The position numbers and the translations under genes are program-made. Source: Pneumocystis sp. 'macacae' (Eukaryota > Ascomycota > Pneumocystomycetes > Pneumocystales > Pneumocystaceae). Taken from it: a stretch of DNA of 64,000 nt. This document shows positions 12,104 through 61,749 of the stretch, piece after piece. Position 1 is the stretch's first letter, and every line of letters begins with the position of its first letter. The stretch spans positions 1 through 64,000 of the forward strand of contig CM030729.1 of NCBI GenBank assembly GCA_018127085.1, written 5' to 3'. Under the pieces are notes generated by a model, which saw only the letters and a program-made list of their open reading frames with translations, was not told the origin of the DNA and did no database searches.

Positions 12104-12633
12104 CGCTCGTACAGGATCATGCAGAACAAGGCCTCAAGGCATGGAACACTTCTATTTTATCTTGCTTTTATAGGACGCCAAGAAATAGTGAGATTTTCAT
12201 ATTCTCAAAAAAACAAGTAATCCCATGCCATCCCAGCACTAATGACTACTCTTGTGCACCCTTTTAATCAATGGTGAGTAGAATTTGGAAATATCCAACT
12301 GAAAAACCAAAATCTTCTGATTTGACAAGGTTGAACGTTAACTCAAAATACAAGTTTCAATTTTATAAAATAGCGATTATTCGGAAAAACCAGAACGTAA
12401 TTCAAAAGAATAAATCTTGGATAGAAAGCTCTGCAATTAGGCACGAAGTAAGCTTGAGACTGTCTAAATGACTACTATTTTATTCAATGTCCAGCATTTC
12501 ATATCTATGTTGAAAGAATGTTCTAAATATTTATGTTTTTATATTGTATATCTATATTCCCTTTAGGAATCATTTTTAGATTATTTTTTAATTCCCTAAT
12601 TTTGTAGCCCAATACAGATGCTCATTATTCCCT
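12104..12633. other. Spacer between MSG genes A and B
   Basis: It holds the 5' flank of gene A (GC-rich for about 50 nt, then AT-rich) and the 3' flank of gene B. The short plus-strand open frame near 12271 has no recognisable features. I see no UCS, promoter or signal-peptide exon upstream of gene A, which supports its being a silent donor. Confidence 0.6.
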
Positions 12634-15600
12634 TTAAATTACAATAAAAATCCCTATTACCCATATAACAATATTCATTACTGTCAACCCAAATATTTTT
12701 GTCCCCCTGCTCGGTATTTTCGTACCTGCTCCACCTGTTTCTCGCCCTTTTGTTCGTGCTTCTTCCGTCGTACATGGCACTGGCTTGCATTTTTGTTTAG
12801 ATGTTGTCACTGAAGTACGTGTCTTCGTCTTTGTGGAGACTGATTTACTCGTCACCCAGGTCGTCTTTGAATCGATTGCCACGCACTTCCCATCTTTCAT
12901 CGTTACAGTGGACTTTGGCTTGCCATCTGTTGCAGTCGAGACAGATGTTTCTGTCGAAGACATCGCTTTAGGCAATACAAACACCTTGCAGTACTTGCGT
13001 ATTTCTTCGCATGGATTCTTAAAGCTAGGGCAATCATCTTCAAAAACACACTCTTGGATAAAATGACCACAGATATCCTTGGCCTCCAAATATAGCTCTA
13101 TAACGAGAGACATAAGATCAAATGCGAGTCCATGACGCACAGATGACTCTATATCCAGATCATCTCGACGCACAAGTTTGATGTAAGCTGTGGCATTGCT
13201 CTGGAGATTGCCACGTGCAGTGAGACGATAATGATTCTGTTTCCGATCTGCTGTCTGGGAAACCACCAAGAACAAGCCTGAATCGCTAACGGCTTTTTCG
13301 GCTTGCTTTTTAGTTTCTTCAAATTCAGCTACTCTATCTTTCAAGTCTTTAGCAACTTTATTCAGCTTAACTGGCAAATTATCACACAATATTTCCATCC
13401 ATTTTATAAATTTATTGCAAATTTCAGTCCTTGTTTTACCATCTTTACTATATTCTTTGCATGAATCTTCAAAAGTCTTGTCCAGTTTTGTTGAGTCTGT
13501 GCAGTAATAATTTAAGCGCTTACTGCACGCATCCTTGTCTGTTAAATATCCCTTTATACTATACATAAGATGTTTCAGTAAGGGAAATTTATCGCGAAAT
13601 GTCTTGCAGTTCCTTTTGAGCTTCACACACAGTTCACCTTCACCATTATCTTTCTTAAGTTTATCAGGGCAATTTCCCATGAGCATATCGCAGTATTTCT
13701 CCCAAAAAAAGCAGATATTATCTTTTTTTTCACTCTCTTCTGATTGCTTGACAACATTCTCGATTTTCATATTCTGCTCAAGTGCAGAGCAATGGTTTTG
13801 TACATCCTCGCGTATTCTAGTACATGTTTTGTAGTGCGCTACACATGTAAGACTAAACGGATTCATTTCCCTTGTAAACCATCGAGGACACTTCATCTCT
13901 AAATATTTTGTGCAGTTATCAACTGTTGCCAAAACGTCATTATTTTTGTTCAACAAAGCGTCTTTCAATTTCTGTGCATTTCTTAGGTGAGCACAATTCC
14001 TCCTCAATGTGCTGCAAGGTGCATTAAGCTCCTCAAAATCCTTTGATAGATTCTCGCACTTTTTTTCCAGAACAATACAGTCTTTTTCTTCCGGATAATC
14101 CCTCTTTTCGTTCAAAATAGACTGTAACTGGAGAGCTTTTCTTTCAACATCCTCCATAAGTGCTTCGCATGTTTCTTTCGGTTTCAAACACATTGAAAGC
14201 AAATCTATACTGTCGTTTCTAACTTTTTTACATTTTTCTACAAGTTTTAGCGCACATCCTTTAATCCCTCCTGAGCCCAAATCATGAAGAAAGCCGAATA
14301 ATTCCCCCTCTAGTACTTCTTTTGCTAAATTAGAAAGCTGAGTTCTATAATACGCTGCTTTCACAACTTTACAGGCTTCTATTAAATCATCACAAACCGA
14401 TTGAAGGTAATAGCATCTTGAAATAAGATCTGTATAAATTTCCTCATAAGTCATTTTAAATAATTTGTCCAAAGTATGAAACTTAGTTTTAGCATTTATG
14501 TTAAAAAATCCATTTTTTTCAAGAGTTAATTGAAAAGATTTGCATTCCGGTTGTACAGTATTGTTTATTTGTCTACATATATTAGTAGGGTTAGTTGTAT
14601 TGCACAAATCCCATAGTTTCTTTGTTAAATACTTAAAAGTACAATTTCCTAGATAATTAGTACATCTTTCCATTTTCTTATCACTTGAATTTTTAACATG
14701 ATACGTAAATAATATAAAACGATGCATTTCTAGAAGTAAAAGCTTAATATTTAAGACACCTAGAGTCTCTGCCTCAGCAAAAAGCTGATTAAGACCTATT
14801 TTTTCTTGAAGTGTAGGTGGAAACTTCAATGGGTCAAAAGGATGACCATAAGGGGAGTATGAGATGTTTTTCCCTTTACAATGGTTTTTAAGGTCTTTGC
14901 AGTTCTGTATTATCGTTTCTTCACAGCTTGATGAGTGAAAATAACATTTCTCAAGAAGAGGGTGGCAATCTTTTTCCAATTTATGAATATTTTCAAATAA
15001 ATTTTTGATATCTTTTTCAAGAGATTCACAGTTATTTTTTTTTTCAATAAAGAGAGTTTCACACGTATATTTTTGATGAAAACAAGATGAAAATAAGTAA
15101 TAGTTTTCTCCTGATAATTTTAAGCAAAAGTCTGTAATTGTCGTTTCACAAGCAAGTTGAGTTTTTAAATTCTTGCCAAGAGCCCTCGAAAGAGCTTCAT
15201 GAGCTAGGGTTTGAAGTATATATGCATGACATTGTTCATCTAAAGTATTGCAGAGGGAATGAAAATCAGGGAATTCCTGGAAAACCATATATTGAAGATG
15301 AACATAATTACATTTAACTTTGTTTAAAGTAGTCTGTGAAGAACCAAGAGAATTAGAAAGACCTTGAAGAAATTTTTTAGCATTTTCAGATGTATTAGTA
15401 ATTTTAGTTTTAAGATCAGTGCATTTTTGTTTTATTTCTTGACAGAGTCCCTCTAATGCAGGATGAAAATCCTTCGATTTTAGACCCATATTTCCAAAAT
15501 CATTGCAGTATTTTTCTAGTTCTTGCTCACATTCTTTATTTATTGCATCTTTCCCCAAAATTAAAGCTAAAATCCCCTCTTCACTGCATAAGAAACATCA

Positions 15601-15800
15601 ATTCTGCACATTTTGTTCCTGTTTAAATGTTTTTATACCCTATTGAGTCTGGTGATGCATATGGTGGGTCCAATGAACCAGATCTCTTATGAATAAGTTC
15701 TAAAAAAATTAAATAGTAGAAAAAGAAAAAACACGATACCAATATTTTTCGAGAAAGCATGTGCTATGCCAAAAAATCCGGCTAACATAAATGCTTTCAT
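12634..15800 (-). CDS. MSG family protein with own signal-peptide exon (gene B)
   Basis: A full-length MSG-family surface protein outside the classical CRJE group. I reconstruct three exons. Exon 1 (15740-15800) starts at an ATG and encodes a hydrophobic signal peptide ending in AHAFSKNI. A short intron ending TTTTTTAG follows, then a small exon carrying 'HKRSGS', a second intron (GTATAAAA...TTATGCAG, about 55 nt) and the long exon. Both introns preserve the frame. The body has Cys-rich Msg domains with a YSPYGHPFDPLKFP segment parallel to the one in gene A. The C terminus is Ser/Thr-rich with a K-C-K-P-V-P-C motif (gene A: R-C-K-P-T-R-C) and a hydrophobic GPI-type tail. It carries its own start and so should be independently expressed. 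Confidence 0.87.
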
Positions 15801-41981: not shown

Positions 41982-44416
41982 CTATGAATATGTTTCTTGC
42001 TGAACAGTATGTCCTACTGCAATGGGTGGTACTTCTCCTTGCTCGATATAATATTGATCATAGGGACTTTTTCCTGCACGGATATCTGCTTCATTAATTT
42101 CTACACCAGGATGTCCATTTGTGAGTCGAAGTTTGCGTTCATATGTTTTAGCATCACCATCTTCTGACAACTTTTGTTTATTCTCAATCTGAACACTAAA
42201 AGGTCCATTTACTTCTCGATCTAATCTATTGTATTCTGAAATAGCATTTGAAATAGGTGCACGTTCTAAAAGATAAACCATGTAAATATGTGTTAAATCT
42301 TTAATTACAAGTGGAGGAAGACGAGCCGTTTTTCGAATCTGAGTAATAACATCAAAAATGCGACAATGCACTTTTTCTGCAGTATCAGGCGCTTTGATCA
42401 TTAGTAGTATAGAATATAATATAACATCTACTTACAAACAGGTTGTTCCATTTCAAACATAAGATAATTAATCCAAAAATAACGACTATCAAGATACATA
42501 GGAGCATTTTTTTTAAACATTTCACGAGCTTCATCAGCAGAACCTTTACACTTTTATAATAATCAATTAATGATTTTAAAAATATATCCTATACCTTCCA
42601 TATCAATCTTATCCATTCAGTAGTTAATGCTGCTTTTGCATAAATATCACACGTACTACTATCAATAAACCGCTTTAGTATAGCAATAGAATTATCGATA
42701 CTCGAAGAAAGACGTCGCTCCATATTAACCCATGAAATAATAGTTTCTATGTGACCTGGGACTTTTTATATTAACAAAACTTCACACATTAATATAAATA
42801 ATACGCTTAACAAGTATAGACTCAAACATAGCTCTAGAAATATCTTCGTGGCCAAGTTGTTCCTCAAAATAAGCATATTGATGACGAATGGCAGGTCGAC
42901 TGTTCCATTAAAATCTATTTATAATGCTAAAAACACTTACCAAATAGGAACAAAAGTAGAACATGCACGTTGATATATCAATCGAACTTCTTCTTCTTTA
43001 TTTTCCTGTGCAGACATCCACCGAACATATCGGAACCAAAATTCATCATATAATGCCTTTTAAAATCAATAATAACCACAAATAATCTAAAACATAATAC
43101 GCATGCAACTAAACAACGCTCATAAAGAAATTGGATTCTTTTAAAATTCCCTTCTGTTTCCTCAAAGTCTAAATATTTTCTCCAATTAACTAATTGTGCC
43201 TCGTCTAATTCAGTTATATGGAAATATGGGCGACGTATCTTCAAATTTAATCAAATAAGAGAATATAATATTTAATTTATACTTCTGCCTCATAAACCCA
43301 TCTTCTTGTAGTTTCTACTTGAGTACGATTAAATATTTCCAAATGCAAATTATGTATCCTCAATCTGGTTTCTCTTTCAATTTCAAGCTCGCCACGCTCC
43401 ATTTTTATTTGCTGTTGTCCAGCTTGAATAGAAGATGCTGGTTCAGCAAGAACATCCCGCCTAAAAGAGCTTAATATATCAGGTGGAAGAAGTTCCGATA
43501 TAGGCCTTGTCGCTCCAACCTGAGTATATCTATAATATAATTATCAATTATAGATATACATATATATCTATAAACCTTTCAAAATATCGAGCATATTGAT
43601 GCATTGGGATGTGAATAACACGATCCAAAATCATAAAAATACGATCAGGCGCTTCCATGCGTTCCTCAAATTCAATATATTTGTCCCAAAAAGGATGTGA
43701 CAAAAAATCTAAACCAACATGAGTAGCTCCACGTTCAAACAATCTAAAAAATCATATTAGTTGGATACAACAAAATACGACTTAAACGAATAATGTAAAG
43801 ACTTATAATATTCTTTAATTCCAAATTTTATGAATTATATAATAGAATAAGACTTAATACTCGTTAATAAATCGAGTTTTTCATAAGTGAAAATACTGAA
43901 GTAACAATAATAAAAAATCAAAAAGATACTCACTCTCTTGTTTCATCAGCATCATGACTCGTCTCCATCTTAAATCCACAATAATTTGTCCAAAGATCAA
44001 CAGAATTGGATATACCTGCAACACCTCTTTCATAAACCTAAAACTATTAACTAGTCTATTTCTTTAAAAAATTATAAAAACAATCTCTGCTGCTTCTGTT
44101 CCAGCTATAGAGAACTCCAATTCCGCATATTTTCTCCAATATCCAAATAATAATGGAAATTTTGTAAGAAATCGATCATAAGCATTTCTCATAGTACCAA
44201 TAGCTTGTGGAGAAGAATTCCTATTTAATCCACCATCTGCAGTCTCTACTATTCTTATCAAAGCCTCCCATGATTCAAAATCATCTGAATTTTGTTTCTA
44301 TAGAAATTCTTTAGAAATATCATGTTTCTAATTATTAAACCCACCACTAGACGAGAATACCTCTCATATTCTGTTTCTTCTTCTAAAATATGTCCAGAAT
44401 ATTCATTATAATTCAT
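41982..44416 (-). CDS. prp39: U1 snRNP-associated splicing factor Prp39
   Basis: A HAT-repeat protein of the U1 snRNP needed for 5' splice-site recognition. The ATG at 44416 gives MNYNEYSGHILEEETEYER. At least seven exons separated by 40-60 nt introns follow. Recognisable HAT pieces include YDRFLTKFPLLFGYWRKYAE, FERGATHVGLDFLSHPFWD with KYIEFEERMEAPDRIF and MHQYARYFERF, and ELDEAQLVNWRKYLDFEE. The last exon is IKAPDTAEKVHCRIFDVI to stop at 41982. The segment CGFKMETSHDADETRE lies between the second and third pieces (near 43945). Order and spacing fit Prp39; some internal exon ends were not resolved. It is divergent from ade5 across about 200 bp. Confidence 0.88.
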
Positions 44417-60981: not shown

Positions 60982-61152
60982 AATCCTTCTAAAACCTTCC
61001 TAAAAAAACGTAAAAAAACAATAAAAATTTAATTGAAAAAAACCATGCAAGATTCAAATACCCGGGGACACATCAAACTTTCAGAAACACTTTTTTAACT
61101 ACTGCCATGATACGACCACAACAACAATTAAAAAAGAATCTCTGAAAGAGAT

Positions 61153-61379
61153 TCGGCGTCTGCCTGAGATAGTGCAATACAAGCGACACCTGTGCCGGCC
61201 ACATAGCAAGCTAGAGATGGCCATGCTCAGTTCAAAAAGTAGTATAATCAATGTGTTCCCAGTGGGAACATTTCAGAGATTAAACTGAAAAGAACAGATA
61301 CTACACTTGATCTAAGCCAAAAGGCTGCACCTGTTAGATACCAAAAGATAATTATGTTGTCTTACCAAAGAGAGGTAAT
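61153..61379 (-). ncRNA. U2 spliceosomal snRNA, with an apparent 41-nt intron
   Basis: The minus strand contains the invariant U2 core: CCTTTTGGCTTAGATCAAGT followed by GTAGTATCTGTTC, which includes the branch-site-pairing GTAGTA. A Sm-like site (ACTTTTTGA) follows, and a 3' stem-loop IV with TATTGCACTATCTC closed by GGTGTC/GACGCC. The 5' end is interrupted: ATTACCTCTCTTTG (61366-61379) is followed by GTAAGA, a CTAAC branch box and an AG at 61325-61326, then CCTTTTGGC. Removing this 41-nt piece gives CTCTCTTTGCCTTTTGGC, the form I recall for fission yeast U2, and a mature RNA of about 186 nt, normal for U2. The 3' end is estimated from the terminal stem. Confidence 0.9.
61325..61365 (-). other. 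Putative spliceosomal intron inside the U2 snRNA gene
   Basis: GTAAGA at the donor, ATCTAAC 9 nt before the acceptor and GTGCAG at the acceptor; 41 nt, like protein-gene introns in this window. An earlier CAG (at 61331) lies only 3 nt after the branch A and would add six nt to U2, so the later AG is preferred. Confidence 0.75.
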
Positions 61380-61400: not shown

Positions 61401-61425
61401 TTTATATAGTTGGAGGGTTAGGGTT
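61401..61425 (-). promoter_or_regulatory. U2 promoter: TATA box and telomere-like box
   Basis: TATATAAA (61401-61408, minus strand) begins 29 nt before the inferred U2 5' end at 61379. Just upstream, AACCCTAACCCT (61414-61425) is a telomere-repeat-like box of the type bound by Tbf1/Teb1 proteins, which in yeasts control snoRNA and other genes. Confidence 0.6.
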
Positions 61426-61749
61426 TTCGTTAAAACTCCGATTAAATTTTGTTTGTAGACTTCTCAATCTGGTAATTATCATGTGATATTCTATATAACG
61501 ATATTACGTTACACTTTAAATAATATGCAATAATAGATGATGTATACCGTGTAATTTAAAACATGTAATATGAAAAATGTAAAACTATTTTTATTTAACA
61601 TACGATAATAAGATAAAACAAAAAAGATATTAAAGTGTAATAAAAAACTTTAAACATTGATTACCAAAACGTTAATAAACTATTATAATTGATGTGTATA
61701 AAATGTTTAAATGCCAAAATAAAAGTTTCTTGATGAAAAATAAAAAAGA
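61426..61749. other. Intergenic region
   Basis: AT-rich spacer between the U2 promoter and the 3' end of the serine-rich gene. Nothing else seen. Confidence 0.5.

Follow-up and report, generated by a model that had tools for sequence, protein, structure and literature searches.

Must the U2 snRNA of this Pneumocystis genome, which is active in the splicing machinery, itself be spliced? The question is raised by a locus on the minus strand of the window (the whole stretch of DNA that was analysed, 64 kb at the start of contig C10), in a genome of 8.27 Mb and 19 contigs. For exon 1 of the DHFR gene of this genome, the best PDB matches were 4ixg, 4ixf and 1cd2, which are enzymes of P. carinii, and its DHFR suggests a species close to P. 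jirovecii, perhaps P. macacae. The Rfam RF00004 model matched U2 at 61334-61147 on the minus strand with 137 bits (cut-off of 46), and the conserved core, the branch-recognition sequence and the 3' stem-loops of U2 were all present. Alignment of the full-length model is the reason why the match starts at 61334, inside a 41-nt segment. A search of the whole genome with RF00004, in which 46 of the 695 first-look candidates were scored, gave a single U2 match, at this locus; the second, intron-less U2 that the first-pass annotation had suggested looking for was not found in the 8.27 Mb.

Read on the minus strand, the locus begins with a proximal-sequence-like promoter element, CGGAGTTTTAA (61430-61440), which is common to U1 and U4, followed by a TATA box, TATATAA (61402-61408), situated 29 nt upstream of the position at which U2 would begin. 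The putative exon 1, of 14 nt (ATTACCTCTCTTTG, 61366-61379), holds the U2 strand of U2/U6 helix II and is split from CCUUUUGGC by a predicted GT...AG spliceosomal intron of 41 nt (61325-61365). This segment has a 5' splice site, GTAAGAC (61359-61365), a branch site, TCTAAC (61333-61338), with 9 nt remaining 3' of the branch A, and a weak 3' splice site, GTGCAG (61325-61330). Exon 2 (61147-61324), which lies within the Rfam U2 match, begins with CCTTTTGGCTTAG and contains stem I, the branch-recognition GUAGUA, an Sm-like site and the 3' stem-loops. The predicted exon-exon junction is CTCTCTTTG joined to CCTTTTGGC. The coordinates given for U2 and its intron by the first-pass annotation were exact when the minus strand was read again, and the signals that it listed in the segment (GTAAGA, ATCTAAC and GTGCAG) were all there. 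Its estimate for the spliced RNA was about 186 nt; the joined exons measured 189 nt when taken to 61150, and the length becomes 192 nt with an RNA end at 61147, where the Rfam match stops.

Promoter spacing and pairing of U2 with U6

The distance from TATATAA to the candidate starts of U2 was 29 nt for 61379, 69 nt for 61339 and 74 nt for 61334, in agreement with the spacing reported earlier (29 nt, and about 70 nt for an end that takes no account of the intron). The start of U1 is known because U1 opens with AUACUUACCUG, and its TATA box lies 32 nt upstream of this 5' end. For U3, U4 and U5, whose chosen starts are less certain, the TATA box precedes the start by 34, 28 and 36 nt, respectively. 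A pattern composed of CGGAGTTTNAA, 5-35 nt and TATAWA was found at three separate genomic sites, which are the promoters of U1, U2 and U4 (four matches, two of them overlapping, with two matches for a reversed control pattern). The pattern was derived from U1, U2 and U4, so their recovery was expected and the absence of other sites is the informative part. Looser or inverted forms of the CGGAGTTTNAA element were seen at U5 and U3, and no element of this type was seen at U6. The presence of CGGAGTTTNAA upstream of the TATA box in U1, U2 and U4 may represent an snRNA promoter code of the genus.

Pairing of exon 1 with the genome's own U6 was then compared with that of control sequences. Between CAAAGAGAGG, near the 3' end of U6, and CCUCUCUUUG in exon 1 there is a perfect pairing of 10 bp. 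It falls at the place of helix II, beside which the insertion lies, as had been claimed earlier. The energy of the exon 1-U6 duplex was reached by none of 2000 shuffled exon 1 sequences and by 3 of 5000 genomic 14-mers, while a perfect block of at least 10 with U6 was obtained with 2 of 5000 random 30-nt pieces. The duplex with the U6 tail had an energy of -16.0 kcal/mol with exon 1, as against -9.0 kcal/mol for the best duplex of U2 without exon 1. A collection of prokaryote genomes contained three U2 pieces in MAG contigs, apparently contamination from eukaryotes; the two that hold the 5' end were used as comparators only. The helix II strand stands immediately next to GCCUUUUGGC in these two U2 genes, as it does in the Rfam consensus, and removal of the 41 nt would give this U2 the same arrangement. 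No match to U2 or U6 letters was obtained in three scans of viral contigs. The TATA spacing, the promoter formed by CGGAGTTT and the TATA box, and the pairing of exon 1 with U6 are three lines that point to a U2 5' end upstream of the segment.

The 41-nt segment beside the introns of the genome

The reference introns came from a simple coding model applied to C10:1-264000, whose splice-site models were then refined, which yielded 94 genes and 539 introns. This set supersedes two earlier rounds, one made on the window only and one of 375 introns (median of 45) made before the splice-site refinement. The 539 predicted introns had a median length of 44 nt (quartiles of 42-47) and ended in TAG (357), AAG (104), CAG (60) or GAG (18). 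As a check on the gene models, five of the eight multi-intron models of the window were searched against Pfam; domains above the cut-off were found in all five (PRP39, CAAX protease, Mnd1, protein kinase and Dus), and at least one predicted junction in each gene was spanned by a domain match. The 30 introns of these five genes had a median of 44 nt, and 26 of them measured 39-47 nt. One of the three models left out of the Pfam check, that at 6-2199, has 13 introns and looks spurious, and the reference set therefore includes some false introns. The window also holds the gene for Prp39 (a splicing protein by its Pfam domains), at 41982-44416 on the minus strand, for which 12 introns are predicted. 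A predicted cysteine-rich protein is also encoded there (12581-15800, minus strand), which we take to resemble the Pneumocystis major surface glycoprotein. Pneumocystis genes are described as having about six exons each, with introns gained before the genus emerged, in the available text of PMC7940399.

The claim of a 41-nt spliceosomal intron in U2 was supported by comparison with this set, in which the length, the 5' splice site and the branch spacing of the segment fit and its 3' site is weak. Its length lies within 39-47 nt, a range that includes 416 of the 539 predicted introns. The 5' splice site stands at the 71st percentile of these introns and at the 96.9th percentile of the GT sites on the plus strand of the 264 kb, and its pairing with the 5' end of the genome's own U1 was -8.0 kcal/mol, compared with a median of -4.2 kcal/mol. 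The 3' splice site stands at the 13th percentile of the introns and at the 50.9th percentile of AG sites, its CAG end being of the kind found in 60 of 539; a closer AG is located immediately 3' of the branch site (CTAACAG), and splicing must skip it. The branch site played no part in the gene finder. The motif YTRAY was present in 338 of the 539 introns and absent from 201, and 8-10 nt followed its A in 134 of the 338, the value for U2 being 9. The branch signal is weak genome-wide, with YTRAY near the intron end in 319 of 539 introns as against 251.5 in shuffles. The CTAAC form is rare (15 of 539 introns, 5.2 expected in shuffles), so the match at the U2 branch site is better than that of the usual intron here.

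A GTANG start combined with an AG end has a chance of about 1.4e-4 in random DNA of the same composition. The combination GTAAG..CTAAY..YAG at short spacing gave three matches on both strands of the 264 kb, at two distinct places, one of which is the U2 segment, and the segment itself occurred once in the genome when up to three mismatches were allowed. A spliceosomal intron in a single-copy U2 gene is by far the best fit to the locus.

U6, U4 and the alternatives for U2

U2 had been treated as an isolated case by the first-pass annotation, and this did not stand, as U6 and U4 of the same genome look interrupted too. An intron-like segment of 46 nt is located in U6 (C8:34851-34896, plus strand) upstream of ACAGAG; at this locus, exon 1 (GGACCCTTGTGGTCCATCTGGTCAAT) is followed by the segment and then by TTGAAACGATACAGAG, and the predicted exon-exon junction is GGTCAAT joined to TTGAAACG. 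The 5' end of the Rfam U6 model falls inside the segment, as at U2, and the 5' and 3' splice sites stand at percentiles 31 and 37, respectively. The U6 segment contains GTTCGG, which we take to be loosely like a Pol III B box.

The U4 match was partial and, at 42.2 bits, below the cut-off of 46; known U4 sequences were the standard for judging the 3' end region of this gene. Two intron-like segments were observed in the gene on the minus strand, one of 43 nt (C11:170195-170237, GTAAG...ATAG), with a predicted junction of CGTCTTT joined to GTGCAAGGG, and one of 42 nt (C11:170096-170137, GTAAG...GCAG), flanked by GCTAGT on its 5' side and TGAAAACTAC on its 3' side, with a predicted junction of GCTAGT joined to TGAAAAC. 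The 5' and 3' splice sites stand at percentiles 32 and 62 for the first segment and 49 and 6 for the second. YTRAY was found only at 29 nt in the first segment, while the second had none in the usual place and one at 32 nt; this unusual placement makes the two candidate U4 introns less sure than the U2 intron. In a co-fold of U4 and U6 without the segments, made with no shuffle control, stem II crossed the first U4 junction and stem I the second. U1 and U5 showed no intron-sized insert, their Rfam models being matched end to end. On this reading, with one intron each in U2 and U6 and two in U4, four introns appear to split three of the five spliceosomal RNAs, which would probably need splicing. 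A possible 53-nt intron with uncertain boundaries was also seen in the U3 snoRNA gene (C4:67329-67381, plus strand, GTAAGATGCC...GCTAATGATGCTTTAG). No obvious intron was found on reading the SRP RNA sequence, in which model positions 1-293 were matched in 251 nt.

These results bear on three other explanations of the U2 locus. U2 could start downstream, at about 61339-61334, the upstream blocks being a promoter or leader that mimics an exon and splice sites. The end-to-end alignment of the Rfam model from 61334 agrees with such a start, as does an AGCC UUUU GGCU stem that still forms in the unspliced fold; however, the TATA box would then be 69-74 nt away instead of the 28-36 nt seen at U1 (whose start is beyond doubt) and at U3, U4 and U5 (whose starts are less certain), the helix II strand would be lost together with the stronger U6-tail duplex, and the end of the Rfam model falls inside an insert likewise at U6. 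We consider this start very unlikely. It is extremely improbable that the 41 nt are retained in mature U2 as an expansion segment, since the GTAAG...CTAAC...CAG anatomy, the length and the spacing are those of an intron, U6 and U4 carry intron-like segments too, and retention in U4 would split a strand of stem II. U2 does vary in size elsewhere, and helix II is not strictly essential, being partly redundant, in budding yeast. The unspliced 5' region of U2 also pairs with the U6 tail more strongly than the spliced one (-22.4 kcal/mol), but the same holds when other GTAAG introns are placed there, in 27 of 38 cases. An assembly artefact, or a dead U2 copy with a working U2 elsewhere, is scarcely credible: a single assembly, possibly incomplete, was examined, but it holds one U2 match in 8.27 Mb, and this copy has a full-length core, a promoter and a compatible U6 pairing. 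A feedback in which U6 pairing over the U2 5' splice site blocks splicing was considered and rejected as not specific, because of the same 27 of 38 GTAAG introns (95 of 539 introns overall).

The reading that we favour, with a probability of about 95%, is that U2 is transcribed from an snRNA promoter with a start near 61379 and that the 41 nt form an ordinary spliceosomal intron of the U2 type, which is spliced out. It brings together the anatomy, the single U2 match, the promoter spacing, the U6 pairing, the likeness to predicted introns and the U6 and U4 parallels, all read in the DNA, and we infer from it the transcription start, the cap, excision in vivo and the need for this excision. Transcription from the TATA box and CGGAGTTT promoter would begin near 61379; U1 would bind GUAAGA of the U2 precursor, and an existing U2 snRNP would bind its UCUAAC. 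An existing spliceosome would ligate the capped exon 1, of 14 nt, with exon 2, with assembly afterwards, and the helix II strand would thereby be set directly beside stem I. Unspliced U2 could still pair in helix II and fold a short stem I, the two being 41 nt apart, and the loss of function that the first-pass annotation expected of it is a possibility only. New U2 would depend on old U2 and, if the sole U2 gene needs splicing, could not be made without the spliceosomes inherited from the mother cell.

Origin of the introns and known systems

The U2 intron is located at the edge of helix II, the first U4 segment within stem II and the second U4 segment a single base pair in from the edge of stem I. 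The U6 segment follows the 5' stem-loop and precedes ACAGAG, and lies in none of the canonical U2/U6 and U4/U6 helices. An intermolecular helix is touched by three of the four snRNA introns, a post hoc count on few cases, which would fit reverse splicing into engaged RNAs. U4 leaves the spliceosome before catalysis, and a simple insertion at the active centre therefore fails to explain the positions. No donor intron was found, in that the genome contains no second copy of the U2 segment with up to three mismatches; an old insertion would leave no copy, so this absence neither supports nor excludes old reverse splicing. We propose only tentatively, and as a whole less likely than not, that U2 (once), U4 (twice) and U6 (once) are interrupted, with three of the four breaks in or at U2/U6 helix II or the U4/U6 stems, that proper pairing of these RNAs requires their prior splicing by the very spliceosome to which they belong, and that these breaks are marks of reverse splicing into complexed snRNAs, with U4 as a previously unreported snRNA-intron host.

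Pneumocystis is a good lineage in which to study how introns enter snRNA genes, because several related genomes could date the insertions. The covariance models started U2 and U6 inside an intron and matched U4 in part, so snRNA introns may be under-counted. Among the literature matches listed, which comprised titles and abstract beginnings and had the main snRNA-intron surveys outside their scope, there was no report of U2, U4 or U6 introns in Pneumocystis or of any U4 intron, and the available text of PMC3488318, PMC10085805 and PMC8216456 held nothing on snRNA introns. On this search, an intron in U4 may be new.

The statement of the first-pass annotation that mRNA-type introns are known in fungal U6 and U2 is in print (available text of PMC10484740; a citation in PMC2586383), and the kind of finding is therefore already known. 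Fission yeast and other fungi have such introns in U6 (Tani and Ohshima 1989, 1991), with a statement on reverse splicing in the available text of PMC10484740, and fungal U6 introns are the subject, by its title, of Canzler et al. 2016, cited in PMC5832005. They resemble the U2 case in being mRNA-type introns in a spliceosomal RNA and differ in that the host is U6, not U2. The U6 segment described here lies upstream of ACAGAG, whereas the fission yeast U6 intron is at a different place.

Fungal U3 snoRNA genes also have introns, none of them reported in Taphrinomycotina (Canzler et al. 2017, PMC5832005), and the available main text of this paper makes no mention of Pneumocystis; the possible U3 intron noted above contrasts with this. 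U3 shares with U2 a spliceosomal intron in a small structured RNA gene, but a snoRNA is not part of the spliceosome. For U2 itself, an mRNA-type intron is known in the gene of Rhodotorula hasegawae, according to the title of Takahashi et al. 1993 (MCB), cited in PMC2586383. The two cases are alike, by that title, in having an mRNA-type intron in a fungal U2 gene, and the two species are far from each other. Rhodotorula hasegawae is a basidiomycete, and its U1 and U5 also contain introns.
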